64,000 bases of DNA from positions 6,525,501-6,589,500 of the forward strand of contig NZ_CP152049.1 in the NCBI RefSeq assembly GCF_038630985.1, in the 5' to 3' direction. This document shows, one piece after another, positions 10,021 through 60,043 of the stretch (the stretch's first letter is position 1; every line of letters starts with the position of its first letter). The notes under the pieces are model-generated. The model was not told where the DNA came from. It saw nothing but the letters and a program-made list of their open reading frames with translations, and searched no databases. Both the position numbers and the translations under genes were made by a program. The stretch is from Paenibacillus sp. FSL H8-0548. GTDB lineage: Bacteria; Bacillota; Bacilli; Paenibacillales; Paenibacillaceae.

Positions 10021-11322
10021 TTATTTCATCGAATCTCTAATTTCCTGTGCCTTTTTGTCCGTATTCTTAAGCACCTCTTCGATGCTCGTTCCACCAGCGA
10101 GGTGATCCTGTAGTTGTTTTCCAAGCTCCAAGATAAGGTCGGCTCCAGAAAGCATCCCCCAGTTGGCCCAAGGTGCGTATACATTCCCCTCGTCGAATGC
10201 CGATTTCGAATCCGAATATTGTTCTGGAAGCTCACTGTTGTCGGCCCCCTTCAGGAAAGAAGTACCGAAGCTGTCTTTAATCAGTGCCGCTTGCGCTTCA
10301 GGCGTAGAGGTGAAATCCAGCACCTTGAGCGCCGCGTCCTTGTTCTTAGCGTTCTTGTTAAGCGCCCAAGCGCTGCCTGGACCTCCGACCAACCAACCGC
10401 TACCTTCCGCGGTTCCTGGAATCGGGAACATGCCTAGTTTCAGATCCGGGTTCTTTTGGATCATCGTATCGTATGCCCAAGGACCACTCTCCCACATCGC
10501 CGCTTTGCCAGTGGCGAACTCGTCGAGTGCCTGATCGTATTCCACGCCAAGCATATCGGGAGTTAGATTCTTCTTCGCAATGGTCTCGTCCCATTTCGTA
10601 AACGCCGGCAACCATGCTTCCGACAAAGTCACTTCACCCTTGCCGAACTTCTCATCGAAGTCCTTGTTCTCTGGTTTCGAATAGAAGTCGTTAAGAGCGA
10701 CGCCCATCGCTTGTTTATCCATCGGTTCCCAAGATTTGGCGCCCATTGCTTGTGGCTTTACACCGACTGCCCGCAGCTTATCGTGTAGATCCATCCACTC
10801 GTCGAACGATTTAGGCGGCGTCAGGTTATGCTGCGTGAATATATCTTTGTTGTACCAAATGCCTTCGAACCACGATTGCAATGGAATTGCATACACTTTA
10901 CCATTTATCGTAGACGACTTGAGTCCCGTTTCGTAATACTTGGAAACGAAAGGCTGGCTCGTAAGATCCTCCAAGTAGCCTGCCGCGATCCAGCGAGCGT
11001 CAGCTCCTTCGATAATATCCGGACCTTCGCCACTAGCCAGGTACGTCGTCACTACGTTCGTGAATTGCTTGTTGTCGACGAATTGATACTGAATGTCGTA
11101 ATTCGGGAATTGCTGGCGGAGCAATTCGAGGTAGGTCTTACGCACCTCTTCTTTGTTAAAACCAATAATCTTGACCGTTGCCTTCTCGGTGTTGTCATTT
11201 GCAGAAGGACTGGTCGGTTCGGTGTTATCGCCGGCCTTGTTGCCTTCATTGCCTCCGCAAGCAGATAAAATAGCTGTAAACAAAAATAATAATGCGATGA
11301 CCCCTGCTAATGATTTCTTCAG
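10021..11322 (-). CDS. Extracellular solute-binding lipoprotein of sugar ABC importer
   Basis: A family-1 extracellular solute-binding protein anchored by a lipid. The first ATG/GTG/TTG-type start in frame (TTG at 11283) would leave only eight residues before the lipobox Leu-Ser-Ala-Cys and no basic N-region. The frame continues upstream to a CTG at 11322 placed 8 bases after AGGAGG. This gives Leu/Met-Lys-Lys-Ser followed by a hydrophobic helix and Cys22, a normal lipoprotein signal of 433 residues total. Maltose-binding-like motifs (Gly-Lys-Ala-Ala-Met-Trp-Glu-Ser-Gly and Ala-Ala-Leu-Lys-Val-Leu-Asp-Phe) are visible. It is followed by an attenuating hairpin and two permeases. It is preceded by its own promoter with the shared regulator element, so the adjacent two-component system probably induces it. 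Confidence 0.9.
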   Translation of the reverse strand: MKKSLAGVIALLFLFTAILSACGGNEGNKAGDNTEPTSPSANDNTEKATVKIIGFNKEEVRKTYLELLRQQFPNYDIQYQFVDNKQFTNVVTTYLASGEGPDIIEGADARWIAAGYLEDLTSQPFVSKYYETGLKSSTINGKVYAIPLQSWFEGIWYNKDIFTQHNLTPPKSFDEWMDLHDKLRAVGVKPQAMGAKSWEPMDKQAMGVALNDFYSKPENKDFDEKFGKGEVTLSEAWLPAFTKWDETIAKKNLTPDMLGVEYDQALDEFATGKAAMWESGPWAYDTMIQKNPDLKLGMFPIPGTAEGSGWLVGGPGSAWALNKNAKNKDAALKVLDFTSTPEAQAALIKDSFGTSFLKGADNSELPEQYSDSKSAFDEGNVYAPWANWGMLSGADLILELGKQLQDHLAGGTSIEEVLKNTDKKAQEIRDSMK

Positions 11323-45360: not shown

Positions 45361-48273
45361 TTATATAATTCCCAGCTTTATTTCCGTAATTGATCCGGTA
45401 TAACCTTCCGGCAGCCGGAAACGAGCCACCATACCTTCCGGATAGGACACGTTAAGCTGCATCGTCCGGTTACTCTCATCAGCGGTCCATGAAACGTCAA
45501 TTCGCCCGCCTGCAGGGTGCGGAACACTGCCCTTCGCCCATGTTAGTCCGCATGGAACAGGTGCAATTTCAACTTCGGTCCAGCCCGTCGTCAAGCTTCT
45601 CACGCCAAGTAACTCACGACCTAAGAAATAGGCCGGCGCAGACGACCATGCATGGCAGTGACTGCGGCTTAGCATATCCGGATTAGCCCGATTCTCGAGG
45701 AAATTCGGATATTGCTCCCAGCATGTAGTCGCGCCATGACGGATCATCATGCCATAGTGGTGGCGGATATCGTCCAAGATGAGGCGAACCTCACCCAGCT
45801 TGGCCAGCGCCTCATAATAGAAGAAGGACATAAACGGACTACCGATTTGCACAAAGCGTTCCGGAGGCTGAACGAGATAAGCATCGATAATCTGCTTGCG
45901 TTCTCCCTCAGCGACTCCCGTAAGTGAGGCTACAACCTGCGAATGTATGCTAAGGCTGTCGGAGCGACGACCATCCGCATGGATACAATCGATATATGCC
46001 TTCTTGTCTTCATCCCATAGCTGCTCATTGATTGCACGCGCAAGATCGTTAGCCGCTGCTTCGAATTTCGCAGCGCCTCCCACATCCTTCGCAATCCTCC
46101 CCATTTGTGCGGCTACATATAACGTCCGAACCAAGAACATGTTCTGATGCGTGACGATACCGTCGTTCGGCTGGTCGATTGGCGACCAATCCAGCATGTT
46201 CCAGCCTTCTACATTAAACAAGCCGCGTTCGTCAATCTTGAGCAAATAATGCTCCCCCGTGTACCGAATAGCGTCATACATCTCCACCGCGAACGCTTCA
46301 TCCCCGGTCTGTTCGTAATATTCCGCACAAGCAATTGCCCAGAAGAACGTCCAATTCGGAATCACGCTGCTCCAGCCGCTCGGCACTTGGTTCGCATAAA
46401 GCGGCGACTGGTGCTTGGAGCCTGGGACAAGTCGTAAGCAACGCTTCAGAATATCCTGCACCCCATACAAGTAATTGCTTACAAGCGCTTCGTTGCGGCT
46501 GTCGCCAACCCAGAAGGTTTGTTCATACGCCGGGCAATCAACGAACGTGTCTTCCATGCACAGCTTTGTCGTATGCCGGCTTATTTCCCAGATGTCGTTC
46601 AGTAGTGTGTCCGAGCATTCAAACCGCCCGATTTCGGCCATCGGATAGTTGCTTTGAATAAAGGTCACGCCATAAATACGCACCGGTGCCTTTGCGCCGC
46701 GCACCGTCAACGCCAAGTAACGGAAGCCACGGCGAATAGGTGTCTCATACACTTGTCTGCCTTCGTGGCATACGTAACGGAGCGTATGATCTAGATCGAA
46801 CGTATCCTGTCGGTACTGTCCAGATAGGTATTCGAATCCGTACCAATCAAGTATCGTTCCAGCATCCGCCTCGACTTCGAATGATAGATACCCGGAATAT
46901 TCCTTGCCTAGATCGAACAGCACCTCGGTATCGCAGCCTTCGAATACGGGCACGATACCCGCCTCCGTATTCGGAATGATAGCGTTCTGAAGCTGTGCGG
47001 GAACGGCAAATTTCACATTTTCTTTCCGCCAAACACTTAGCGCGAACACATCGACCTCGGACACGTACTTCGGATTAATGGGGCTTATCCAATTTCCGTA
47101 CCGCTTCAAATCCTCCGGTCGTTTCAGCGCACCCAGCAATTCAAGATAGGTCGGATGATTCCAATCGAGCGCTCGAACGGGCTGATGATCAATCGGAATG
47201 ATCGCATCGAATGGGCCGATCCGGAAGAAAGTTGATGCAGAATGATCAGCTTGCAGCTCTGAAGGGGCAACGAATGACAATTCCCCGGTTTCTTCTCCGT
47301 ATATGCCGAGCTGCAGCTTGCCGGCGTGGAGGCTGCCCGATACATCGATAATGAGCAGGTTATCCCCTTCGTTCAGGAAAACATCCATATAGCGCTCGGG
47401 AGCCGTTCCATATATCCGATCCTGGGAGACCATTTCCCCATTAACGGACAGCTCACGAAAGCATTCTCCCCCCTGCAGGAAGCCAAGTGTTGCTGCACCC
47501 GCACAATTTGTGCGAATCGCAGTCACCACGAATCCCGTAAATTCCAACCTATTCGCATGGTCCTCACTGCCATCGTTCAGCGCATTGCGAACATCAATCG
47601 CTGTTGTCGCATGGAACGACCTCACCTTCGCCAATGACTCCACCCGCACGGGGTACACCGTCTCGTCCGTCAGCATCGGGATGTCCCTGGGCTTAAGCGT
47701 CGTCCACGGCGACATACCGACCGAACCAAGGGAGATCGCATTGGACCATCCCGTATTGTTAGCTGCCAGCTCCATCCATGATGAATCCCATGCTGTGGCA
47801 TCAATGTATTCGGAGAATGCTTGCTGAACCGACATCCGCGGTGCGCGTGGATGCTGTCCAAGATGACGCGAGGTCAGCCAAGTCGTGTCGGTCGAGACGA
47901 CGACTTCCCCATCCGCATCATTAAGCTCAACCAACAAACCTCCCCGTCCCCTTACATAGTAGAACGTCGACAACCCGAAGTGCATGACGAGCACAGCAAT
48001 CGTATTTTCTTCGCCAGCCTTTAGAAGATGACTAACTTCGTACGTATCATAAGACTGCTCGTTCGGCCATGAGCGAACAGGTCCCCGCCCAAGCCTCGTC
48101 CCGTTTACGTACAGGACATACCGTGAATCAGCCGTAATTCTTAGTTTAGCGCCGGAGCGTAACTCGGCTGCAGCCGATACGTCGAATGTTTTACGGAAGC
48201 ATCTCCATTCATTGCGAGGACTTTCCTCCCCTTCTCCCCAAATCCACTCGGCTTGCCAATCCATCGTCATCAT
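45361..48273 (-). CDS. GH78 alpha-L-rhamnosidase family enzyme (cytoplasmic)
   Basis: A 970-residue enzyme without a signal peptide. N-terminal beta-sandwich domains (about 1-360) carry the Bac_rhamnosid_N pattern with Tyr-Val-Leu-Tyr-Val-Asn-Gly. The (alpha/alpha)6 barrel begins near 540 with Glu574-Asp-Thr-Phe-Val-Asp-Cys-Pro-Ala-Tyr-Glu584, then Trp-Val-Gly-Asp-Ser-Arg, the acid-rich active-site block of GH78. The usual Arg-Asp-Glu-Arg stretch is replaced by Ala-Tyr-Glu-Gln, so this is a divergent subgroup. It is last in the operon after the binding protein, permeases, surface enzyme and GH42, so it should trim imported rhamnose-containing oligosaccharides. Start ATG has no strong site; the fourth codon is also ATG. 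Confidence 0.88.
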   Translation of the reverse strand: MMTMDWQAEWIWGEGEESPRNEWRCFRKTFDVSAAAELRSGAKLRITADSRYVLYVNGTRLGRGPVRSWPNEQSYDTYEVSHLLKAGEENTIAVLVMHFGLSTFYYVRGRGGLLVELNDADGEVVVSTDTTWLTSRHLGQHPRAPRMSVQQAFSEYIDATAWDSSWMELAANNTGWSNAISLGSVGMSPWTTLKPRDIPMLTDETVYPVRVESLAKVRSFHATTAIDVRNALNDGSEDHANRLEFTGFVVTAIRTNCAGAATLGFLQGGECFRELSVNGEMVSQDRIYGTAPERYMDVFLNEGDNLLIIDVSGSLHAGKLQLGIYGEETGELSFVAPSELQADHSASTFFRIGPFDAIIPIDHQPVRALDWNHPTYLELLGALKRPEDLKRYGNWISPINPKYVSEVDVFALSVWRKENVKFAVPAQLQNAIIPNTEAGIVPVFEGCDTEVLFDLGKEYSGYLSFEVEADAGTILDWYGFEYLSGQYRQDTFDLDHTLRYVCHEGRQVYETPIRRGFRYLALTVRGAKAPVRIYGVTFIQSNYPMAEIGRFECSDTLLNDIWEISRHTTKLCMEDTFVDCPAYEQTFWVGDSRNEALVSNYLYGVQDILKRCLRLVPGSKHQSPLYANQVPSGWSSVIPNWTFFWAIACAEYYEQTGDEAFAVEMYDAIRYTGEHYLLKIDERGLFNVEGWNMLDWSPIDQPNDGIVTHQNMFLVRTLYVAAQMGRIAKDVGGAAKFEAAANDLARAINEQLWDEDKKAYIDCIHADGRRSDSLSIHSQVVASLTGVAEGERKQIIDAYLVQPPERFVQIGSPFMSFFYYEALAKLGEVRLILDDIRHHYGMMIRHGATTCWEQYPNFLENRANPDMLSRSHCHAWSSAPAYFLGRELLGVRSLTTGWTEVEIAPVPCGLTWAKGSVPHPAGGRIDVSWTADESNRTMQLNVSYPEGMVARFRLPEGYTGSITEIKLGII

Positions 48274-48342: not shown

Positions 48343-50499
48343 TCAACGAATAAATGGCTCATGCAATTGAAACACTTGAATATCGCCTGCTTTTAGGGAG
48401 AGTCGTATAGAATCGGTCACATCGTTCCCTGCCAAGGCATGAGCTCCTTCTGGGAACCATGGCGTTACACCATCATAAGCAAAAGGCAAACTCACCGTAA
48501 AATCCGTATCCCTATTCGTCGTGTTATGAACAAATAGAAAGGCTCCCTCTTCGCCATCATGCTTCCATTCCAGAACATCCGCACGAGCCTGACCGCCATG
48601 AACCTTCACATACGGCTCCAAACCAAGCTCTTTCTCCATTATTTCCCTCAAGAATTCGAGCGTATTCCTATCCTCTTCTTGCCAATAGGATGCGCCGAGT
48701 AAGGTACCTATCCAAACCGCTTTCCCTTTCCCGTAATCTGCAACGGTTACGGCAGCCGAGCTATCTTCGCTGAACGTAGCGGCAACTCTTACATCCCTTA
48801 GCAGCTCAATTTCCGTTTTGTAGTAGGAACCTTGAGCAGGATCATTTCCAAGCGCACTGTTCAATGGAATTTTCTGCTTGGATTGAACCGTAACATTATG
48901 ATAGCTATGATCTAAATTTTCTATAGAATGAATCCACGTTTCACGTATTCCAAATACCTCATCAAATCCATAGCCAGGCACTTGATAGCTATGCGTGCCA
49001 TCCTCCGCCTGCAAGGCTCCAAAGGAGCATTCGGATAGAACAATTCCGCCTTCGCTTACCCACTCACGAATGACATCCGTCATTTGTTTGTTTAAATAGA
49101 GCGGATAAGGCATCCACAGGCATTTATACTTGGCCAATTCCTCTTTCGAAATATCATGGTCATGAATAAATTCGACCTTATAGTTCAAATCATGCAGAAG
49201 CTTATGTGCTCCTTGCACGGAATCCGTATAGGTATCCAAATGCGCGTAAACGGAGAAATTAGCAATTTGGTTTTCCGAGCTGAACAAAATTGCAATTCCA
49301 TCCGACGGTCTTTTTGAACACAGCAATGGGTTGCGATTCGCTTGAATCGTCTGGTTTAAGCTCGCCATTTCTCTCAGCCATGGTGTCTCACTTCCATCCA
49401 GGTAAGTGCTTCCCCATGCTGGCGCCTCATGTCCAAGCACTTCCGGGCGGTATTGCCAGAATAAAAAACCGCTAATGCCTCTAGCGAGTGGGATTAATAT
49501 ATGTTTTTTCAGCTCTTGCCATGAAAGCTTTTGTGGTTTGAGTGCCGTATTTCCAGGCAACGCATGAATTTCCGAATTAATAATCGGCTTTCCCTTCGCC
49601 GCTGAGATCAAGAGGTCCGCTGACCAGGCTGACGATCCCAAGCTATTACCGAATAAGTCGCAAGGCTCCGCCAATTTGAAATCATCCGACCCTGCCGTAA
49701 TGAGATTAAAAATCGGAGAGGGAACGGTGTGCACCATCACAGGGTGGACGGTATCGAGTTGCTTGACTACCGCTATGCGACATTTCAAGTCATCCGTTAA
49801 AGCATCTGACATAAACAAGCGCCAATCGACCATATCGTTAAATACAGCTTGCCCGCGAGGGGGTTCAATTTCATCCCAATCTTGATAGGTACGCTGCCAT
49901 TTGTAATTAAGGGCTTCAAGCGTGCCATATTTATGCTCCAGCCATCCTCCGAATGCTTGCAAAGAATGCTCGCAATAACAAACCTGATTATCAAAGGAAA
50001 GCTCACGTTTAATTCCTGCTGTCAGCTCAGGTTCGTTCCATAAATCCCATACCCACAAAGCAGGATGATCTCTAAACGCCTTTACCGCTTCCGCTAAAAA
50101 CTTGTCTTTCTCCAGTTGTCCCGGCGCATGATGATAACAAGGACCAGGGGCTCCACCTATTTGTCGGTAACTTAATGCTCTCGGTTCAATAACTGTTCCA
50201 TCTGATGTAATCATTTTGGAATCTGGATATTTCTTGTAAAACCACGCTGGAGCGACGTCAAATAGGGTGTTTAGCACAACCTTTAATCCATTGCGGCCTG
50301 CTATATCCATTAGCTCCCTGATATCGTCAAACACAAAAGCGTTTTCGGCTGGATGGCTCGCCCGCCACTGCACCCAGAACTTTACGCAATTGAATCCCAT
50401 TTGGGATAGGTTGCGTAAATCCTCTTCCCATTGATCCCGGTAAGGAGTTGGGGAACGGTAATACTGAAAACCAAAAGGAATGAAACCTGCTTCCGACAT
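48343..50499 (-). CDS. GH42 beta-galactosidase (cytoplasmic)
   Basis: A 718-residue GH-A clan enzyme. A TIM barrel (about 1-390) has acid/base Glu156 in Leu-Trp-Asn-Glu-Pro-Glu and nucleophile Glu310 in Ile-Asn-Ser-Glu-Ile-His. A flavodoxin-like trimerisation domain (about 395-600) and a C-terminal beta domain follow, the standard GH42 plan. There is no signal peptide. It releases beta-galactose from imported galacto-oligosaccharides, fitting pectic galactan or arabinogalactan side chains. It follows the 2056-residue surface enzyme by 110 bases, with a hairpin between, and precedes the rhamnosidase by 69 bases. Confidence 0.92.
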   Translation of the reverse strand: MSEAGFIPFGFQYYRSPTPYRDQWEEDLRNLSQMGFNCVKFWVQWRASHPAENAFVFDDIRELMDIAGRNGLKVVLNTLFDVAPAWFYKKYPDSKMITSDGTVIEPRALSYRQIGGAPGPCYHHAPGQLEKDKFLAEAVKAFRDHPALWVWDLWNEPELTAGIKRELSFDNQVCYCEHSLQAFGGWLEHKYGTLEALNYKWQRTYQDWDEIEPPRGQAVFNDMVDWRLFMSDALTDDLKCRIAVVKQLDTVHPVMVHTVPSPIFNLITAGSDDFKLAEPCDLFGNSLGSSAWSADLLISAAKGKPIINSEIHALPGNTALKPQKLSWQELKKHILIPLARGISGFLFWQYRPEVLGHEAPAWGSTYLDGSETPWLREMASLNQTIQANRNPLLCSKRPSDGIAILFSSENQIANFSVYAHLDTYTDSVQGAHKLLHDLNYKVEFIHDHDISKEELAKYKCLWMPYPLYLNKQMTDVIREWVSEGGIVLSECSFGALQAEDGTHSYQVPGYGFDEVFGIRETWIHSIENLDHSYHNVTVQSKQKIPLNSALGNDPAQGSYYKTEIELLRDVRVAATFSEDSSAAVTVADYGKGKAVWIGTLLGASYWQEEDRNTLEFLREIMEKELGLEPYVKVHGGQARADVLEWKHDGEEGAFLFVHNTTNRDTDFTVSLPFAYDGVTPWFPEGAHALAGNDVTDSIRLSLKAGDIQVFQLHEPFIR

Positions 50500-50609: not shown

Positions 50610-53600
50610 TTAGTTCTTATCCTTGATGATGGCAAATATAAAGGTTGCCGCTTCCGCCCTCGTTGCCTTTTCCTGTGGTTCGAAACGATTGTTTGTTCTG
50701 CCTTGCACAAGGCCTGCAAGCTTAAGCTCCGTTACATAAGATACTGCCCAGCTTGGTATGTCTTGCGTATCGGAGAACAGATCACCGTTAGTGGTATTCC
50801 CTGTTAGCTTAAGCGCTCTTCCCATCAGAACCGCTATTTCTGCACGTGTGATGGGTTGATTCGGCCCGAAGCTGTCTTCGCTTATTCCTGTAACAATACC
50901 CGCGGCTACAGCAGCTTGAACGCTATTCGCGTACCACGAATCCGCTTTGACATCCTTAAATCCTGTAGCAACGTCTGAGAGCTCAAGATCTAACGCTCGA
51001 ACCAGAAGCGCAGTGAATTCTGCTCGGGTCGTCAAAGCTGCAGGCTTGAATATGGTTTCGGTCACTCCGGTTACAAGATGCTTAGCTGCTAGCACCTGAA
51101 GTGTTCTAGCAGCCCAATGTGCTGCTGGAACATCCTCGAAAGTCTTCTTATACTCCAGCACCGCGTATTTACTAAGATGTTTCAGCTTAACCCTTATCGT
51201 ATCCGTAACCTTATCTACTGTACCGCCTACATACTCCCATTGCTTAGTAGACTCGTTGTAGAAATAAATGCCTAGAAGATCCTGATCCAATCCAGTTGTA
51301 AAAGGTAGTGAGATTTCCACGTCACCCGATACTTGTTGGGCTGTATAAACCGTTCCATCTAGCTTCGTTAACGTAATGCTAAGTTCATAGACCTGACCTG
51401 CGAATGCGAAGACTACTCGCGCTTTCCCTCCCAGTACTGGAGAATTCGAGATATTCGAATCTACTACAGGTAACATTTGAACCTCGAGAATAGCGCCCGA
51501 TGCTGCCCCCGCCTGCTCCGATAGCCTGCTAAGTACGGCTGGACTAATTGTAAATACGGCTGCTCCCGATTTCACCTGCACAGGAAGATTACCCACTTTC
51601 TCCATGGGTACTGAGAAGACAGTTTCATTGCTGCCAAGCTCTACAATCACCTTGCCCTCATCGACCACAAAACGACTTGTTTTATTGCCATTGTTGCTTG
51701 TCGGTGTTGGTGTCGCCGTCGGTGGTGTTGGTGTCGGCGTTGTTGGTGATGGCGATGGTGTCGGCGGTGTACCATTTACAGCTGAAAAATCCAACTGATC
51801 AATGTACTTGGCCGTTCCTTTCGGCTCCTTGCCTTCAAAGCTTTGTATCCAATTTGTATCTCCAATAATCCAAAGGTTTCCGTCCCTGAGTGCCCATACT
51901 TTGCCTTCGGTAGTCTGATATACAATCTCAGCAGTAGCACTTGCTTGCGGATTCAGGACCTGAACGACCGCACCATTCTCTAACGTTGTAAATTCGTTCG
52001 TGAAATAGCTATCAATCTCCGGCAATGCGCCTAAATTTCGGCGATAACCCATATAGACGGTATCCCGCGTTCCATCCTTTAAGCTCCCTAACTCCAGCAA
52101 TGCTTTTCCATAAACAGTCGTCGCTGGGTCATCCTCGAGATTGACGAGCAGTACGTCGGTTTTCACCTTAGGATCGAATGTAGGCACCACCCATTTGTCA
52201 TTCGCAGTCGTGAGCGTTGCTCCACCCTGATAGTCATTTCCAGGCAATACGACATTACGTCTGTTAGGTCCCCACCACATTTCTCCTGCGGGATAGGCAT
52301 AATAAACCTCCGGACGATAAGCAACCAGCTCAGCTAACGAATCTGGAGCTAATAGATTCGTCCGATATTCATCCAGCCATTCAAATTGAATAGGCTTGGC
52401 TGTGTAATAGGCATAAGCTTCGGTACAGGCTGTATGATAGCTGCAATTGAGCAAGAAATCATAAATGCCTTTCGAGCCGCTCTTGATCAAGTTATCGAAA
52501 TGATCGTACATCGTTTGCTGATCCGGGTAGCCTTTCACACCCGAATTATACTTCTGCTCCATGTTCTCATCTAACTGTGTTTCGGTTGTAATCAGCCACA
52601 TCGTTTGCGCAGACTGTTCGGCTGCCGAGTAAGGATATCCGGCCCGCTCCCTTACCAAATACTCGGAATTTCCGTACACTTCTCCACCTATGCCTTGAAA
52701 ACCGCCGGCTTGTTGATGGTTGATAAAATACTTCCTTTGGCTTGAAACGTATTTATAAATAACAGGTATGGAAACAATTTCATTAATAGCGTCTGCAACC
52801 TTCATTTGATAATCGTTGAAGGAGTCGTCTCTGAAATCCGCATAATCATCCCACAGTCGGCCCTGATAAGCATCTGCCTTATACGTAACATCAGGAGATG
52901 CTGAATCGACTAGTAAAAGCTGGTTTTTCCAAGCTTCTTCCCTTTCCCCCCTCACGATAGGAACGAGACGGGCTGCTGTTTCGTAGGAAGGAAGTGGTGT
53001 AAGCATTTTCCATGCCTCATTCAAATCCTCAATCGTGGAATAACGATTATTCAGCCACGTAATAAATTGAGCGCGATAGACAGGCGAATCAATCAACATA
53101 CTCTCGTTCTCAGCATATACACCCGATTCGTTATTGACCGGGTCTACGAATAACCGGAAGTTAGGTCCAAGCCTTAACTTGCTGACATGGCTCTTGATTT
53201 TATCAAGAAAGAGATCTCCCTTATCCCAAATATTGACCAGTACGTGACTCTTGTATTTCACCTGTGGAGTAAAGTAGACCGTATAAGTACCCTCGCTTAA
53301 AGTCGGCACCGTGACATCGGCCTTAAATTCAAGCATGCTGCCGCTTTGCTTCTCCACCGTCCCTTTGCCCGAGGCGACCACTTCCCCCGTCTTAGGGTTA
53401 ACGACTGTAAACAAATTAGATATAGCCGTTATGCTAAAGCTCGAAGCTGGCGCTACAGCATTCTGAACGTTAGCGGATGGAACAATGAGAGAGACTTCGC
53501 CACTTTGAGTAATATCCTCCACTTTCAACCAACCAGATAAATAGGCTCCCGTAACGTTCCCTGATTCCGCTTCAATCCAGGCGTAGTCATTGATTGGATG

Positions 53601-56600
53601 ATTCGGTTTAGCGATTCCGCTCGGTGTCCATGCCCAATCTTCAGGTACTACCGCAATCGCGTCGAGTCCTTGGGCGTATAAGCCGTCATTGATACTTTGT
53701 CTCGGCGTGTCGGTCAAGAAGCCCAGTGAATGCGTTCCGCTTGCTAACTCTACAGAATCCAGCTTATGCCATCCGAACTGCAAAGCCTCAATGGTACTGA
53801 ATACCGGTTCGCCAGATGCATCGCCAGTTGATTGATAAGCCCCGTTGTCAAGCTTCCACTGATAAGAGGAAGCATAGGATTGATTATTCGGCGTGCCTAG
53901 CACCCAAATGTCATAGTTCCCCGCGGCAGGAAGATGAAATGAATAATCTGCTGTCCCCTTAGAACCCGGAATTTTAGTGTACATCTTCAGGAATTGTCCG
54001 CCGCTGGCTGCCTTGAGTGACGTAGCCCCATCGCTCGCCCTAGGCATATACGCAGTCTGAACGACCTCCTCCTCGTCCCCATGGTTGATCGCGTTAAATT
54101 GAATACCGTAAGTAAATCCTTCTTCATCCAAATAATCGAGCAGCCACTGCCATGCCCATGCCGGTATTCCAGCTCCATGCACGACAGCATTGATATACAA
54201 ATCCTTTAACCCTTGAGCCTTCATATATTGTAAAACCCGCTTATCGTCTTCCCAACGCGCTTTGTTTGCAGCAGCGTCCGTTGTGGAGAAATAAATCAAA
54301 TAGTCAGAGGTAAACAATCCCCCGATGGGAACAAATGGTACCCCATCCCATATCATCGTGTGGTTTTGGTCTGCATACCAAAAGTGGGTTTCCCCTAGCT
54401 TCTTGTCAACGAAGCCGCCATTCGTGAGCGGCTTGTAGCCATCGCTCGATGCCGTGGCGGAAACAACCGTCAAGCTCGGTTCCGATGGTAAAGCTTGCAG
54501 CTTATGAAGTCCAAATTTGACAACATAGCTCGCGGCTGGAATGTCTTTGGGAAGCTGGAAATCGAATACAACTTCCTTATTTTCACCGACCGGTAAGCTA
54601 GATGTATTCACCGAAGCAAGCTCCGATACGCCCCACAATACATCATCTTTCCAGAAGCTCAGATAGGCTGTCGTATCGAAATCCACAGCTTGCAGCAATT
54701 CGAAGGAAGCCGTTCCCTGCAGGGTCGCCTCTCGGTTCATTTGTTGCGGTACTATTAATTCCTGTATTTCCACCTTAAGCTCCGGTGCATCCCCTTGAGC
54801 TGAACCCATTGCGAATGACTGCACGAGTACGGAGTCGTTACCATCCGGTGCATTCGTGTAAGGAATATCGACGATTCCGGTTCTTACCTCGTAAGAGCCG
54901 TCAGGTGCATTAAATGGAATTTTCAGTTGCATCGTCTGAACGTTTTCTTCCCCGTTCGTCCAGGTCTTCTTAACGGAGGGAACAACCTCGCGTGATACGA
55001 CCTCTTCGTTTAGCATCAGATCGGCAAAGAAGTACAGCTCGCCATTAAAGTCTGCTTCCACCTTATTCGTAGTGGTGACGGTCACTATATCCTCTCTTTG
55101 CACAATGGTCTTATCTAGTTCGCCGCTAACAAAACTAAATTTCACTTCTTGCCCATTAAAAGGCTTATTGAGGCCTTTCGGTGACCATCCCCACGAATCC
55201 GGAACGATGACCCAAGCATCAATAGCTTGCGAATACAAGCCATCTAGAGAGGCTTGCCTTGGCGTATCCGTTAAGAAGCCTAGCGAATGCTGACCTTGGC
55301 TTAATTCAGATACACCTAGCTTTTGCCATGACATAGGCAATCCTTCCGGTGTGACATACACCGTATTAGCTGAAGGGGAATCGACGACTTTATAGCTGGC
55401 GGCATCCAGCTTCCACTTAAATGGAGATAGCCATGGGTTATCTCCGGGTGAAGCCAATACCCAAACGGAATAGTTGCCGGCTTCAGGAATATCAAACTCA
55501 TAATCCGCTGTACCCGTCGCCCCCGGTGTCATGGTATACATTTCGAGAATTTGTTTGTCGCTTGCCTTAGCATTATATTTCGAACGATACTCTCCGGTTA
55601 TCGAAGCAGCTTCGCCTTCCATCCAGACATATTTAGGAGGAATAATAGGTTTGGGTGCAGGATGTTCCAATCCATTAGGTGTCCATTCCCACACCTGCGG
55701 CACGACAGCCACAGCATCAATCCCTTGAGAATATAAACCGTCCAACGCGGCTTGTCTTGGGGTATCTGTTAGAAATCTCAAGTCGTGCTGACCCTGCTCC
55801 AAATCCATTGAGCTTAGTTTTACCCAATAGAACGGCATGCCTTCCGGCGTACCAAACACGCTTTCTCCGAAAGCTTCGCCAACAGCGCTATAAGCACCTG
55901 TATCCAGCTTCCACTTGTAACCTGATAACCACTCGTTATCCCCAGGCGTACCCAATACCCAAACATCATATTTAGCCGTTGCTGGAATATCCAATTGATA
56001 ATCCGCCGTAGCGACCGTATTCACATCGTAAGTATATAATTTCAAATAACTAGCTCCGCTGGAGGCGCCTTCACCCGCGACTTGATATCCTCCATTGATG
56101 GCTTGCGCGTCCTCTCCTTCTACCCACAGGGAATCCGCTTCAGGAAGAACCATATTTGTAGGCTGTTCCAATCCATTAGGCTTCCATTCCCATGCATGCG
56201 GCACAGCTACCACTGCATCAATTCCTTGCGAGTATAACCCGTCCGAATTTCCCTGTCTCGGGGTATTCGTTTGAAACCCCAAATCGTGCTGACCCTGCTC
56301 CAAATCAGTTGAGCTCAGCTTAATCCAATAGAATGGCATGCCATCCGGCGTAGTAAATACGCTTTCGCCGTAAAAGGAGCCTGCAGCGCTGTAAGCACCT
56401 GTATCCAGCTTCCAATTGTAACCCGACAGCCATATGTTATCTCCAGGCGTACCCAGCACCCAAATATCATATTTAGCCGTTGCTGGAATATCCAATTGAT
56501 AATCCGCCGTAGCGACGGTATTCGCATCATGAGTATATAACTTCAGAAAACTGGATCCGCTGGAAGCCCCTTCTCCGACAACTTGGTAGCCTCCGTCGTA

Positions 56601-56780
56601 GGCTTGTGCATTCTCTCCTTCTAGCCATAAGTATTCAGAAGTTGATTGTAAAATGGGTGAATCAACGCCACTATCATCTTCAGCGTAAATAACATAAGAC
56701 GGAAAAGTAGCCACCAATACAGCAAAAACGAGTGTTACCGTTAGAAGTTTATTTTTCATCATTTTCATAGCTTGTATCAT
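50610..56780 (-). CDS. 2056-residue S-layer-anchored multimodular glycosidase-like protein
   Basis: A secreted cell-wall protein. The signal peptide ends near Ile-Tyr-Ala33. Three CBM-like repeats (about 50-205, 216-373, 384-538) share Trp-x-Glu-Gly-Glu and Gly-Leu-Tyr-Ser-Gln-Gly-Ile-Asp-Ala. Beta-sandwich modules fill 540-780. From about 790 a GH-A-like catalytic region begins, with Asn-Asn-Glu1218-Ser-Gly as probable acid/base and GH42-like Trp-Leu-x-x-Arg-Tyr-Ser-Thr-Ile-Glu-Asp-Leu-Asn-Glu-Ala-Trp. This region is interrupted (about 905-1085) by a fourth repeat plus the start of a fifth. A Pro/Thr linker lies at 1671-1695 and three SLH domains at 1881-2050, each with Thr-Arg-Ala-Glu. It lies between the permeases and GH42, so it probably degrades galactan or rhamnogalacturonan at the cell surface. 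Activity is not proven. Confidence 0.88.
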   Translation of the reverse strand: MIQAMKMMKNKLLTVTLVFAVLVATFPSYVIYAEDDSGVDSPILQSTSEYLWLEGENAQAYDGGYQVVGEGASSGSSFLKLYTHDANTVATADYQLDIPATAKYDIWVLGTPGDNIWLSGYNWKLDTGAYSAAGSFYGESVFTTPDGMPFYWIKLSSTDLEQGQHDLGFQTNTPRQGNSDGLYSQGIDAVVAVPHAWEWKPNGLEQPTNMVLPEADSLWVEGEDAQAINGGYQVAGEGASSGASYLKLYTYDVNTVATADYQLDIPATAKYDVWVLGTPGDNEWLSGYKWKLDTGAYSAVGEAFGESVFGTPEGMPFYWVKLSSMDLEQGQHDLRFLTDTPRQAALDGLYSQGIDAVAVVPQVWEWTPNGLEHPAPKPIIPPKYVWMEGEAASITGEYRSKYNAKASDKQILEMYTMTPGATGTADYEFDIPEAGNYSVWVLASPGDNPWLSPFKWKLDAASYKVVDSPSANTVYVTPEGLPMSWQKLGVSELSQGQHSLGFLTDTPRQASLDGLYSQAIDAWVIVPDSWGWSPKGLNKPFNGQEVKFSFVSGELDKTIVQREDIVTVTTTNKVEADFNGELYFFADLMLNEEVVSREVVPSVKKTWTNGEENVQTMQLKIPFNAPDGSYEVRTGIVDIPYTNAPDGNDSVLVQSFAMGSAQGDAPELKVEIQELIVPQQMNREATLQGTASFELLQAVDFDTTAYLSFWKDDVLWGVSELASVNTSSLPVGENKEVVFDFQLPKDIPAASYVVKFGLHKLQALPSEPSLTVVSATASSDGYKPLTNGGFVDKKLGETHFWYADQNHTMIWDGVPFVPIGGLFTSDYLIYFSTTDAAANKARWEDDKRVLQYMKAQGLKDLYINAVVHGAGIPAWAWQWLLDYLDEEGFTYGIQFNAINHGDEEEVVQTAYMPRASDGATSLKAASGGQFLKMYTKIPGSKGTADYSFHLPAAGNYDIWVLGTPNNQSYASSYQWKLDNGAYQSTGDASGEPVFSTIEALQFGWHKLDSVELASGTHSLGFLTDTPRQSINDGLYAQGLDAIAVVPEDWAWTPSGIAKPNHPINDYAWIEAESGNVTGAYLSGWLKVEDITQSGEVSLIVPSANVQNAVAPASSFSITAISNLFTVVNPKTGEVVASGKGTVEKQSGSMLEFKADVTVPTLSEGTYTVYFTPQVKYKSHVLVNIWDKGDLFLDKIKSHVSKLRLGPNFRLFVDPVNNESGVYAENESMLIDSPVYRAQFITWLNNRYSTIEDLNEAWKMLTPLPSYETAARLVPIVRGEREEAWKNQLLLVDSASPDVTYKADAYQGRLWDDYADFRDDSFNDYQMKVADAINEIVSIPVIYKYVSSQRKYFINHQQAGGFQGIGGEVYGNSEYLVRERAGYPYSAAEQSAQTMWLITTETQLDENMEQKYNSGVKGYPDQQTMYDHFDNLIKSGSKGIYDFLLNCSYHTACTEAYAYYTAKPIQFEWLDEYRTNLLAPDSLAELVAYRPEVYYAYPAGEMWWGPNRRNVVLPGNDYQGGATLTTANDKWVVPTFDPKVKTDVLLVNLEDDPATTVYGKALLELGSLKDGTRDTVYMGYRRNLGALPEIDSYFTNEFTTLENGAVVQVLNPQASATAEIVYQTTEGKVWALRDGNLWIIGDTNWIQSFEGKEPKGTAKYIDQLDFSAVNGTPPTPSPSPTTPTPTPPTATPTPTSNNGNKTSRFVVDEGKVIVELGSNETVFSVPMEKVGNLPVQVKSGAAVFTISPAVLSRLSEQAGAASGAILEVQMLPVVDSNISNSPVLGGKARVVFAFAGQVYELSITLTKLDGTVYTAQQVSGDVEISLPFTTGLDQDLLGIYFYNESTKQWEYVGGTVDKVTDTIRVKLKHLSKYAVLEYKKTFEDVPAAHWAARTLQVLAAKHLVTGVTETIFKPAALTTRAEFTALLVRALDLELSDVATGFKDVKADSWYANSVQAAVAAGIVTGISEDSFGPNQPITRAEIAVLMGRALKLTGNTTNGDLFSDTQDIPSWAVSYVTELKLAGLVQGRTNNRFEPQEKATRAEAATFIFAIIKDKN
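53607..54065 (-). repeat. Fourth CBM-like repeat inserted in the catalytic region
   Basis: Residues 906-1058 align with repeats one to three from the Phe-Leu-Lys-Met-Tyr-Thr segment to Trp-Ala-Trp-Thr-Pro-Ser-Gly. They are followed by Tyr-Ala-Trp-Ile-Glu-Ala-Glu, the start of another unit that breaks off after about 20 residues. Confidence 0.75.
55167..56633 (-). repeat. Three tandem CBM-like repeat units at the N-terminus of the surface enzyme
   Basis: Units of 155-158 codons at 56166-56633, 55662-56135 and 55167-55631. The first two are roughly 80% identical by eye in protein and very similar in DNA; the third is more diverged. Each ends Trp-x-Trp-x-Pro-x-Gly-Leu followed by a Pro-containing linker. 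Confidence 0.8.
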
Positions 56781-56826: not shown

Positions 56827-57645
56827 TTAACCCTTAACTGCACCAGCAGTAAGACCTGAAACAATGTATTTTTGGACGAATATATACAATAAAATAACGG
56901 GCAACGAGACAATCACAATATTGGCAAACACCAAATTCCAGTCACTGGAATGTTGACCAAAGAAGAAATAAATGGTCATGCTTAACGTAAATCGACTTGC
57001 CGTATTCAGAAAATAAAACGGCGTTTGAAAATCATTCCAGATGTTCATGGATGAAAGGACGACAACAGATGCATTGACTGGCATTAATAACGGAAAGAGA
57101 ATTTTGAAAAATAATTTAAACCTTCCGACTCCATCAATAATAGCCGCTTCGTCAAGTTCTTTAGGTACGCCTCGAAGAAATGAAATATACAAATAAGTCA
57201 TGAAGGGGAAATTGGTGGCTACATAAAGTAAAACAATCCCCGTGAGCGTACGAATGAGATGCAGCGATTGCATTAAATAGTAGGTCGTAATAATTGAGCC
57301 AGGAAGAATCATTCCCGCTATTAGAACGTGCTGCAACAGTCTCATAAGACGGCTGTCTCTGCGTTCAATAACAAAAGCGGCAACTGCACAAACGATAATA
57401 ATAAGGACAACAGACACAACGGTTATAAACAGCGTAATCCAGAACGCTTGTGGAATACGTGCAATTCTAAATACCTCTGTATAATTATTGAAACCTGACC
57501 AATCTTTAGGAAGTGTCAACTTTAGGTCTGCTGCATCGCTTTGATTCTTAAGAGAGTTCACAATAACCATGTATAAGGGAATTGCTACAATTCCGCTTAG
57601 AATCAAGGAAATCAGCTCTAGTAATCTTTTTTTCCATTTGCGCAT
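56827..57645 (-). CDS. Carbohydrate ABC transporter permease, MalG type
   Basis: A 272-residue inner-membrane permease with six helices. The EAA loop is Glu-Leu-Asp-Glu-Ala-Ala-Ile-Ile-Asp-Gly-Val-Gly, and the C-terminus Gly-Leu-Thr-Ala-Gly-Ala-Val-Lys-Gly is typical. It starts 4 bases after the stop of the MalF-type partner. It is followed after 46 bases by the S-layer-anchored enzyme, linking transport to surface digestion. Confidence 0.9.
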   Translation of the reverse strand: MRKWKKRLLELISLILSGIVAIPLYMVIVNSLKNQSDAADLKLTLPKDWSGFNNYTEVFRIARIPQAFWITLFITVVSVVLIIIVCAVAAFVIERRDSRLMRLLQHVLIAGMILPGSIITTYYLMQSLHLIRTLTGIVLLYVATNFPFMTYLYISFLRGVPKELDEAAIIDGVGRFKLFFKILFPLLMPVNASVVVLSSMNIWNDFQTPFYFLNTASRFTLSMTIYFFFGQHSSDWNLVFANIVIVSLPVILLYIFVQKYIVSGLTAGAVKG

Positions 57646-57649
57646 CTGA

Positions 57650-58519
57650 TCACCCTTCTACCTTCCGGTTCAGCACCTTATTGACCAGCAGCACAATCAC
57701 CAGGACAATCAGGAACAACATGACGTTTGCTGCCGTAGCCTCCCCATTCCTGCCTGCAGCAAAATTCTTAAATACGATTGTGTTAATGACCTGAGATGAA
57801 TTTCCTGGTCCTCCCCCTGTCAAGGCATATACGATATCAAATACCTTCAAGCCGCCGATTACACTGAGAATCACGTTTGTATTGACGATTGGCATGATCA
57901 AGGGAAGCGTAATATGTCTGAACATTTGCCAGGAATTAACGCCCTCAACCATGGCCGACTCCTTCAATTCCTGAGGGATCGTTTGTAGTGCCGCTAGGAA
58001 TAGAATCATCGATAGACCCGTCCACTTCCATATTTCAACAAAACTCACAGAAAAGATAACTATTTGCGGATCAGTCAACCATGATTGCGCAAGCATATCC
58101 AAATGAAGCGTTTCCAGAAACACATTTAAAAGCCCTCTGCTAGGATGCAGCAAAGCACTGAATACAAGTGAAACTGCCAATGTACTTAGAAGAACTGGGA
58201 AAAATAGCATCGATCGAAAAAAGAGTGTTGTCCTTAACTTAGCATTGGCCAGCAACGCAAGCAGCAAGCCTAAAACAATCTTAAAAACGGTCGTAATAAT
58301 GGCGAATATAAATGTATTCTTGAACGCGATAACCTGATCATCCTCCTGAAACAAGGATTTGAAATTGTCGAATCCAACAAACCGAGTATATTTAAAACTT
58401 TCGTCCATATTCGTAAAGGCATATAGAAATCCTGTTAGATTCGGATAAATGAAGAAAACACTAAAAATCAACAAGCCAGGCAACAGCAACCAGTAGCTAT
58501 AATACATTTTTTTTATCAT
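57650..58519 (-). CDS. Carbohydrate ABC transporter permease, MalF/UgpA type
   Basis: A 289-residue inner-membrane permease. It has the N-terminal Leu-Leu-Pro-Gly-Leu-Leu segment, the EAA loop Glu-Leu-Lys-Glu-Ser-Ala-Met-Val-Glu-Gly-Val, and Leu-Thr-Gly-Gly-Gly-Pro-Gly-Asn-Ser. It is encoded between the binding lipoprotein and the MalG-type partner. GAGGTG precedes the ATG. As elsewhere in the window, no ATPase gene is adjacent. Confidence 0.9.
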   Translation of the reverse strand: MIKKMYYSYWLLLPGLLIFSVFFIYPNLTGFLYAFTNMDESFKYTRFVGFDNFKSLFQEDDQVIAFKNTFIFAIITTVFKIVLGLLLALLANAKLRTTLFFRSMLFFPVLLSTLAVSLVFSALLHPSRGLLNVFLETLHLDMLAQSWLTDPQIVIFSVSFVEIWKWTGLSMILFLAALQTIPQELKESAMVEGVNSWQMFRHITLPLIMPIVNTNVILSVIGGLKVFDIVYALTGGGPGNSSQVINTIVFKNFAAGRNGEATAANVMLFLIVLVIVLLVNKVLNRKVEG

Positions 58520-58542
58520 TCGGCACCTCTATATAAAAGGAA

Positions 58543-58558
58543 GGGAGTAAGAACTCCC
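58543..58558 (-). other. Small intercistronic hairpin between lipoprotein and permease genes
   Basis: GGGAGT pairs with ACTCCC in the 58-base gap, flanked by purine/pyrimidine runs and followed on the minus strand by TTCCTTTT. It occupies the same place as the hairpin at 9971-10004 and may lower permease expression. Confidence 0.4.
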
Positions 58559-58577
58559 CCCCTTTTTTCTAATGTCT

Positions 58578-59951
58578 TCACTTGAAGTTCGGATCGTCCT
58601 TGGCTTTTGCTGCTTTTTCATAATCCTTTTGTTGTGCTTCTAGCACTTGTTCAGGCGTTTTCCCGCCAATAATGATATCCTGCAAATAAGCTGGGAAAGC
58701 CGCGTTGATATCGTATTTCATACTAAACCCGTCGCCACTCGCTCTACCGGCATCCAAAAAGGCTTTGGCTTCAAGCTCCGCTGGTGTTAATGATGTCACC
58801 GTTACACCCTTAATTGCTGGAATACCGCCATCTTTGCCGAAGAAAATATTTTGCGCTTCTAGAGATTCGAAGAAGTTAACAAACTTCTGTGCAGCTTCTT
58901 CATTTTTACCTTTGACCACAAAGACGGCATTTGGTGCAAAAATATAGCTTTTGTCGGCTTCAGCGCCTTGGTAAGGCATAATGAACGCGCCAATGTCTGC
59001 TGTCTGATCCGGGAATTTACTGGCAATATCGGTCATTACCCAAGTCGCCATAATGTACATGCCTGCTTCGCCCGTTGCCAAAGCCTTCTGTGCATTATCG
59101 TAAGTATCAGAAAGCACGTCCTTGTTTGTCAGCCCTCTAGACGTCACATCTTTAAGGAACTGCAGCCCTGTTTTACGAGCTGTCCAATCTGTGAATTTTG
59201 CTTGATTAACATCGATTTTAGCGAGAATCTCAGTCGTTGAAGGTGTGGCTTGTGCATGCTGCACGGGTAATTGCAATGTCCATGCATCTTTACCGGAAAG
59301 GTATACCGGAATTTTCCCGCCTTTCTTGAGCGCCTCGCTAACGCTCCAGAATTCATCCATCGTCGTGGGTACTTGAAGCCCTAAGCTTTCGAATACCTTT
59401 TTGTTATACAGAACTACACTTGTATTAGAACCGCCATATGGAGCTCCATAATATTTACCGTCTTCAAGAGCTGTCATAATGCCCTTCCAAGATTCCTTGT
59501 CAAAATTAGTTATCCACGGCTGATCCTCTTGGCTAACGAATGTATCGGACATTTTACCGAAGCCTTGTGTATCCCCAAGACCAGCGTAGTAGAACAGTAG
59601 ATCCGGCTTATCTCCAGTAGCAAAGCGGGCTTTGACTAGATTAACGCCATCCATACCCTCGGGGATTTTCTCTATTTCTAATTCAATGCCCGTTTTCTCA
59701 GCTGCTGCGATTAGGACTTCATCCATACCGCTTTTAAACCAGCTAGCATGTCCAATCCCTTTGATCTTGATCTTCTCCAAAGGTGCACTTGGGCTTTCTT
59801 CAGGTGTAGATGGACTAGCACTTGGTGAACCCCCATTGTTTGTGGAACTGCTTGAACCCTCATTATTCCCACTGCCACATGCTGTAACGACCACCATCAA
59901 CAAAGCTAATATCGCTGCAGCAAAAACTTTTCCAAAATGTTTTTTCCTCAA
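58578..59951 (-). CDS. Extracellular solute-binding lipoprotein of sugar ABC importer
   Basis: A family-1 binding protein of 457 residues. An ATG at 60017 would add 22 charged residues before the signal. GAGGGG six bases before a TTG at 59951 gives Leu/Met-Arg-Lys-Lys-His followed by a hydrophobic helix and lipobox Val-Val-Thr-Ala-Cys25, so TTG is preferred. The mature protein begins with a Gly/Ser/Asn/Pro-rich tether, then a maltose-binding-like fold with Gly-Glu-Ala-Gly-Met-Tyr-Ile-Met. It is the first gene of the long operon through the permeases, surface enzyme, GH42 and GH78, and should deliver their substrate. Confidence 0.9.
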   Translation of the reverse strand: MRKKHFGKVFAAAILALLMVVVTACGSGNNEGSSSSTNNGGSPSASPSTPEESPSAPLEKIKIKGIGHASWFKSGMDEVLIAAAEKTGIELEIEKIPEGMDGVNLVKARFATGDKPDLLFYYAGLGDTQGFGKMSDTFVSQEDQPWITNFDKESWKGIMTALEDGKYYGAPYGGSNTSVVLYNKKVFESLGLQVPTTMDEFWSVSEALKKGGKIPVYLSGKDAWTLQLPVQHAQATPSTTEILAKIDVNQAKFTDWTARKTGLQFLKDVTSRGLTNKDVLSDTYDNAQKALATGEAGMYIMATWVMTDIASKFPDQTADIGAFIMPYQGAEADKSYIFAPNAVFVVKGKNEEAAQKFVNFFESLEAQNIFFGKDGGIPAIKGVTVTSLTPAELEAKAFLDAGRASGDGFSMKYDINAAFPAYLQDIIIGGKTPEQVLEAQQKDYEKAAKAKDDPNFK

Positions 59952-60043
59952 AATTTTCCCCTCTTTTCGAATCGATATTGGTTGAGACGTTCTCAGTGTA
60001 CCGTCTGTATCAATCAAACAAAATAGATATTCTTATTCATCGC

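Follow-up and report, generated by a model that had tools for sequence, protein, structure and literature searches.

Binding modules in the β3-α3 loop of a catalytic barrel, binding modules within a catalytic subdomain, and circular permutation among families of carbohydrate-binding modules (CBMs) are all already known, and we compare these cases here with a gene for a 2056-residue protein of Paenibacillus sp. FSL H8-0548, which lies in a 64,000-nucleotide stretch of contig NZ_CP152049.1 (positions 6,525,501 to 6,589,500; hereafter the window). In 2010, Montanier and colleagues reportedly described, to go by the title, a circular permutation between two calcium-dependent CBM families, said to be CBM36 and CBM60. 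That case likewise concerns permuted CBMs but is reportedly a relation between families, with no insertion into a barrel.

In xylanases of glycoside hydrolase (GH) family 10 that carry CBM4 modules (Xyn10C type: Pm25, BACINT_04215, and BACOVA_04390), the CBMs lie between β3 and α3 of the TIM (triosephosphate isomerase) barrel (PMC7848910), which is also the predicted position of the binding module in the 2056-residue protein. These xylanases have two CBM4s in a GH10 barrel, and the accessible part of the paper does not describe the modules as permuted or as copies from an N-terminal array (PMC7848910); in contrast, our protein has one permuted repeat of its own type, a GH42-like barrel, and SLH domains. 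In the α-amylase SusG, CBM58 lies in domain B, a subdomain of the catalytic domain, and so it is also a CBM within a catalytic subdomain, but SusG belongs to GH13, its CBM is of another family, and the same part of the paper does not describe it as permuted (PMC7848910). MalS from E. coli (GH13 subfamily 19) is likewise a glycosidase with a circularly permuted domain order, but in MalS it is the barrel that interrupts the C-domain of the same enzyme, and no permuted repeat copy inside the barrel is described (PMC10223318). An earlier reading of the window from its letters alone (the original prediction) held that binding modules usually flank the barrel; given the Xyn10C-like precedent in GH10, it is less out of the ordinary than this implies for a CBM to sit in a barrel loop (PMC7848910). 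In a literature search of open-licence PMC papers, we found no described case of a repeat of a protein's own type that was inserted as a permuted unit.

We consider it likely that the 2056-residue protein carries, inside the barrel of an SLH-anchored GH42-like glycosidase, a captured and permuted unit of its own binding repeat, which likely serves as a substrate holder. We built a hidden Markov model (HMM) of the repeat from the three N-terminal units of the protein and two units of G027. Units 1, 2, and 3 were matched at residues 50-214, 218-383, and 384-542 with 299.8, 297.6, and 271.4 bits (all three are in the seed), and the body of a fourth unit, which is not in the seed, was matched at residues 923-1063 with 184.0 bits. 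The period of the N-terminal array is 498-501 nucleotides. The inserted body lacks the first strand and motif of the unit; both come after the body, at residues 1066-1086, and the barrel sequence picks up again at V1087, directly after this tail. A second HMM in the permuted register, built from pieces of tandem arrays that run from mid-unit to mid-unit and with the insert left out, covers the insert over positions 3-168 of 174 (187.3 bits). When the insert is restored to its natural order (tail and then body), the seam is gapless against 7 natural units, and the reordered insert is identical to unit 3 at 76 of 158 positions and to two units of a paralog from the same genome at 64 of 162 and 65 of 159 positions. 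The tail is also gapless in the alignments to unit 3 and to both paralog units. Finally, 14 positions are invariant or nearly so across 34 natural units, and the insert retains all 14: W1068, E1070, and E1072 in the tail and S926, Y956, L961, S971, W1004, G1015, R1027, D1040, V1045, P1046, and P1053 in the body. The W-x-E-x-E motif together with D1040 hints at a metal site like that of CBM6/CBM35 modules. By these alignments and by the predicted structure, the body and tail are a single unit in circularly permuted order.

The original prediction instead described a full fourth repeat followed by a stray 20-residue beginning of a fifth. That agrees with the linear order of the sequence, but the body is without its own first strand, which the "stray" tail supplies. 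We reject this description, which we rate as highly improbable, because the seam closes, the strand order is rotated, and all of the conserved positions are present once the two pieces are joined. The insert had also been placed at about residues 905-1085. There is indeed repeat material in the barrel, but its bounds are 924-1086; what precedes it, up to about residue 923, belongs to the host and is present in insert-free relatives as well.

The units were said to resemble no CBM family, but the predicted structure of unit 2 (with three residues added) is a jelly roll of the CBM6/CBM35 type, with a predicted local distance difference test (pLDDT) of 95.1 and a predicted template modelling score of 0.90. 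This model matches CBM6 and CBM35 structures and has the jelly roll of the CBM6/CBM35 superfamily. By profile, the unit matches MiXBM, a xanthan-lyase module, weakly (expect value (E) of 5.3e-4) and the CBM35 structure 2wz8 (E = 0.55). The units differ from CBM35, CBM6, and MiXBM modules in that they are just 12-21% identical to them (matched rows) and have no Pfam assignment above the cut-off, as a Pfam scan of the whole protein gave none for the CBM-like units. Golvesin_C matches 8 of the 34 units (E ≤ 0.01) and is sub-threshold in the 2056-residue protein (residues 413-499); the other sub-threshold matches of the whole protein are NPCBM_assoc (716-756), Filamin (1135-1182), and GH42 (1215-1258). 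In the model, the permuted insert is a jelly roll that two linkers attach to the barrel, and its strand order is rotated.

In the predicted structure, the two flanks of the insert make one (β/α)8 barrel, as in clan GH-A, and the insert sits between β3 and α3. This supports the original prediction, which put the repeat material within a barrel of the GH-A type and had residues 790-900 and 1085-1640 form that barrel together. As in clan GH-A, a glutamate follows an asparagine at the end of β4 (N1217-E1218, after β4 at 1208-1212) and another lies near the end of β7 (E1400, with β7 at 1395-1402). Both are invariant in 20 aligned sequences, and from the alignment and the model we infer a retaining mechanism with E1218 and E1400 as the candidate catalytic pair. 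GH42 is the sole catalytic Pfam match, and PF02449 scored 17.7 bits with the whole protein and 20.2 bits with the catalytic region, as compared to a cut-off of 21, which agrees with the earlier description of this region as just distantly GH42-like. GH42 was matched at E up to 0.01 by 11 of the 20 members of the enzyme family that we scanned, and when we compared profiles with the GH42 protein encoded next door, no more than 29 columns could be aligned (probability 55.3). GH42, GH164, and GlmA-like enzymes differ from our protein in having about 10-14% identity to its barrel, and the CBM array and SLH domains also set it apart. Our assignments are based on Pfam and on structure comparison, and the barrel or the unit may belong to a GH or CBM family that was described only recently.

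At the host site, insert-free relatives have AYMPRAYEGAGVLK and then KENI, while the 2056-residue protein has AYMPRASDGATSLK, the 163 inserted residues, and then VEDI. Among 394 genomes of the family, we found any match in 21 and full-length catalytic regions in 9; these 9 genomes hold at least 11 full-length genes, of which 6 carry the insert and 5 lack it. (Two candidates were scored per genome, so these are minimum numbers of genes.) When we scanned a single genome for each GTDB species, we obtained 18 loci. Besides the window, the insert is carried by P. sinopodophylli, P. luteus, P. paridis, P. baekrokdamisoli, and Cohnella sp. WQ 127256. Across 42 genes, 6 have one in-barrel unit (a gap of 165-166 residues) and 36 have none (a gap of 4-69 residues). 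Close relatives lack repeat material at this site, and the insertion is not something that the family normally carries. A branch supported at 100/100 separates the six insert-bearing genes from all others, and in this tree the insert is confined to one clade. We looked for an independent second in-barrel insertion and found none among the 42 genes; P0020 and L052_13720 have five HMM matches each, all outside the barrel. The 42 genes remain from 44 after dropping two with no match longer than 350 residues (L053_9612 and L060_7580), and they include two pairs that are identical over the compared region; this comparison leaves out P0001 (the P. sinopodophylli protein, also L045), P0002 (a near copy of L047), P0022-P0026, and L059. 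An artefact of a single assembly is ruled out, as the insert recurs in six genomes that share one gene neighbourhood.

P. baekrokdamisoli and the window's genome each hold a second, insert-free copy. The paralog in the window's genome (L009:2728-7932) has 1735 amino acids and is preceded by an open reading frame (ORF) of 733 amino acids, which matches no Pfam family (E ≤ 0.001). The insert-free copy of P. baekrokdamisoli (L048:4951-7494) lies beside a gene of the GH38-type α-mannosidase family, unlike the insert-bearing copy with its GH42 and GH78 neighbours. In loci from Clostridia metagenome-assembled genomes (L051, L052, L053, L055, and L056), we saw adjoining members of the enzyme family, or else ORFs in which the unit occurs several times.

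We estimated the ratio of nonsynonymous to synonymous substitution rates (dN/dS) from four of the six insert-bearing genomes. The insert has dN/dS of 0.085-0.145 (six comparisons) and the N-terminal units have 0-0.234, while the two parts of the barrel have 0-0.075 (12 values), all below those of the insert. Judged by these ratios, the insert is under purifying selection, with less constraint than the barrel. Across residues 1-480 (window 55341-56780), G000 is nearest to G047 (1.7-4.2% nucleotide difference), differs from G016 by mostly 2.1-4.2%, yet by 12.9% in residues 1-80, and is far from G022 (6.2-13.3%). Across most of the remaining gene, G000 is nearest to G022; the exceptions are residues 481-560 and 1361-1600, and there is a tie at 1201-1280. 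This mosaic divergence among four genomes suggests, as a pattern rather than a formal test, strain-to-strain recombination in the array region, and it fits the original prediction that repeat DNA had recombined. Overall, the observation made in that prediction is partly confirmed and its interpretation is partly supported.

We propose that a secreted, SLH-anchored, GH42-like glycosidase of clan GH-A gained a fourth CBM6/CBM35-type unit at β3-α3. The captured DNA would have been one repeat period, running from the middle of one unit to the same point of the next. A piece of one period always encodes the whole domain in circularly permuted form, and therefore the insertion and the permutation would have arrived together, in what we infer was a single step. 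The β-α loops of a barrel lie at its catalytic face, so the permuted unit, a jelly roll held by two linkers in the model, would lie there too; it probably binds sugars and holds the polysaccharide near the active site. The N-terminal units and the SLH domains would tether substrate and enzyme to the cell wall, and the fragments of the polymer would be imported by the neighbouring ATP-binding cassette (ABC) transporter and finished by the GH42 and GH78 enzymes.

The more specific claim, that one recombination event moved exactly one period of the enzyme's own array into its barrel loop and that the permuted copy is still functional, we hold tentatively, at somewhat less than even chances. Alternatively, two or more units of the array might have been duplicated into the loop, after which deletions left one permuted period. 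Tandem arrays do grow and shrink, and there are 0 to 5 unit matches per protein across the 42 relatives, but none of these genes has more than one in-barrel unit and closure to one period demands two well-placed deletions, so we think this unlikely. It is somewhat doubtful, too, that the insert came from a different CBM6/CBM35-like array in another gene or species. In a midpoint-rooted tree of units with 50 rows, which left out the units of P0001, P0002, P0020-P0022, P0024, and P0026 and matches under 25 bits, the insert clade falls outside of the other 26 close units, which are held together at 92/82. This favours a foreign donor and is also a point against our proposal. However, in a reduced tree of 40 rows, which additionally left out the distant units of P0014-P0019, the insert groups weakly with unit 3 (69/83) and, again weakly, with all units of its own genes (64/71), and a protein search with the insert region found just 4 proteins, all of the same enzyme family. 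(The insert is present in only one of these, P0001, which represents 9 member sequences; the search needs shared short words and missed known unit-bearing members of the family, so it is not exhaustive.) The array of the same gene is weakly supported as the donor.

The in-barrel unit might instead be a structural spacer that has lost sugar binding. Its branch in the 50-row tree is long (0.37) and its dN/dS exceeds every value for the barrel, as a spacer would predict; on the other hand, it retains all of the conserved positions and its dN/dS is inside the range of the N-terminal units. We view a spacer as a minority prospect.

Several other observations limit or weigh against the proposal of a captured, functional, permuted unit. 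The tail by itself is weaker evidence: its score was equalled in 1 of 5000 shuffles, and its own HMM match is 6.3 bits (two-sequence search). In the alignment used for modelling, 34 of the 57 rows are short pieces of natural arrays in the permuted register, which favours the folding of the insert as a unit in the model, and the left linker was predicted poorly (model positions 143-149 are below pLDDT 50). A grouping of the insert with units 1-2 is not rejected (p = 0.191 in the approximately unbiased test). The nearest insert-free genes (L041, L042, and L048) have other gene neighbours in the stretches that we compared, so they are paralogs and do not provide a strict empty site. Leu-Lys closes the insert and also occurs in the host immediately ahead of it, which makes short-homology recombination at these junctions possible, but this is only suggestive: because the codons now differ (CTC AAG versus TTG AAA or CTG AAA), microhomology is not demonstrated. 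For the barrel, the Foldseek TM-scores are low (0.28-0.44 for GH42, GH164, and similar enzymes among the top 41 rows), and GH35 and GH2-type enzymes reach nearly equal Z (about 21), so no GH family is singled out. As to function, the analogous GH10 enzymes hardly altered their xylan-degrading profile without their CBMs (PMC7848910).

It is common to regard domain insertion and circular permutation as two distinct events. If a single recombination event did produce both here, the capture of one period could be a general and overlooked route to inserted, permuted domains, because whatever stretch of a tandem repeat is exactly one period long must encode a circular permutant. The route of origin is testable here because the insert is precise, close relatives lack it, and there is a plausible donor array, and the enzyme family offers natural pairs with and without an in-barrel binding module, including the two genomes with both kinds of copy, for asking what the insert does.

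The ORF and the three SLH stretches agree with the earlier description of a surface-anchored protein (Table 1).

Table 1. Features of the window discussed in the text, with residues of the 2056-residue protein where they apply
Feature	Window positions	Strand	Residues	Remarks
Multimodular protein	50610..56780	-	1-2056	ORF; signal-like N-terminus by eye; SLH domains
N-terminal binding unit 1	56139..56633	-	50-214	
N-terminal binding unit 2	55638..56132	-	217-381	
N-terminal binding unit 3	55158..55631	-	384-541	sub-threshold Golvesin_C match
Linker region, perhaps Ig-like	54441..55157	-	542-780	one weak, sub-threshold NPCBM_assoc (NEW3) match
Catalytic domain, first part	54012..54440	-	781-923	β1-β3 and start of β3-α3 subdomain (predicted)
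Insert, one complete circularly permuted binding unit (by alignment and model)	53523..54011	-	924-1086	163 amino acids
Insert body	53586..54011	-	924-1065	
Insert tail	53523..53585	-	1066-1086	natural N-terminal strand, with W1068, E1070, E1072
Catalytic domain, second part	51831..53522	-	1087-1650	remainder of subdomain, α3, β4-β8, following domain (predicted)
Candidate acid/base	53127..53129	-	E1218	Asn-Glu after β4
Candidate nucleophile	52581..52583	-	E1400	T-T-E-T near end of β7
Three SLH stretches	50622..51143	-	about 1880-2053	Pfam, above cut-off
GH42 β-galactosidase-family gene	48343..50499	-		adjoins the insert-bearing gene, in the window as in five other genomes
GH78-type α-L-rhamnosidase-family gene	45361..48273	-		conserved in the window and five other genomes
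ABC sugar transporter	56827..60017	-		permeases 56827-58519, substrate-binding protein 58578-60017; conserved in the window and five other genomes

The gene order of transporter, insert-bearing gene, GH42, and GH78 is common to the window and the five other genomes. The neighbourhood includes GH78 twice and GH42, with GH88, GH43, and GH2 farther off, as well as dehydrogenase, isomerase-like, and epimerase genes. By association alone, this neighbourhood points to the side chains of pectin, and the simplest guess is a pectic substrate that is rich in rhamnose and galactose.

Elsewhere in the window, positions 6071-8212 encode a 713-residue protein with DUF5054 and a sub-threshold match to the N-terminal domain of GH38, near a gene for a substrate-binding protein (10021-11283). 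When we searched genome G000 with the whole protein, 97 of the 100 matches listed start at residue 1660 or later, mostly in the SLH part, and this genome is unusually rich in SLH proteins.

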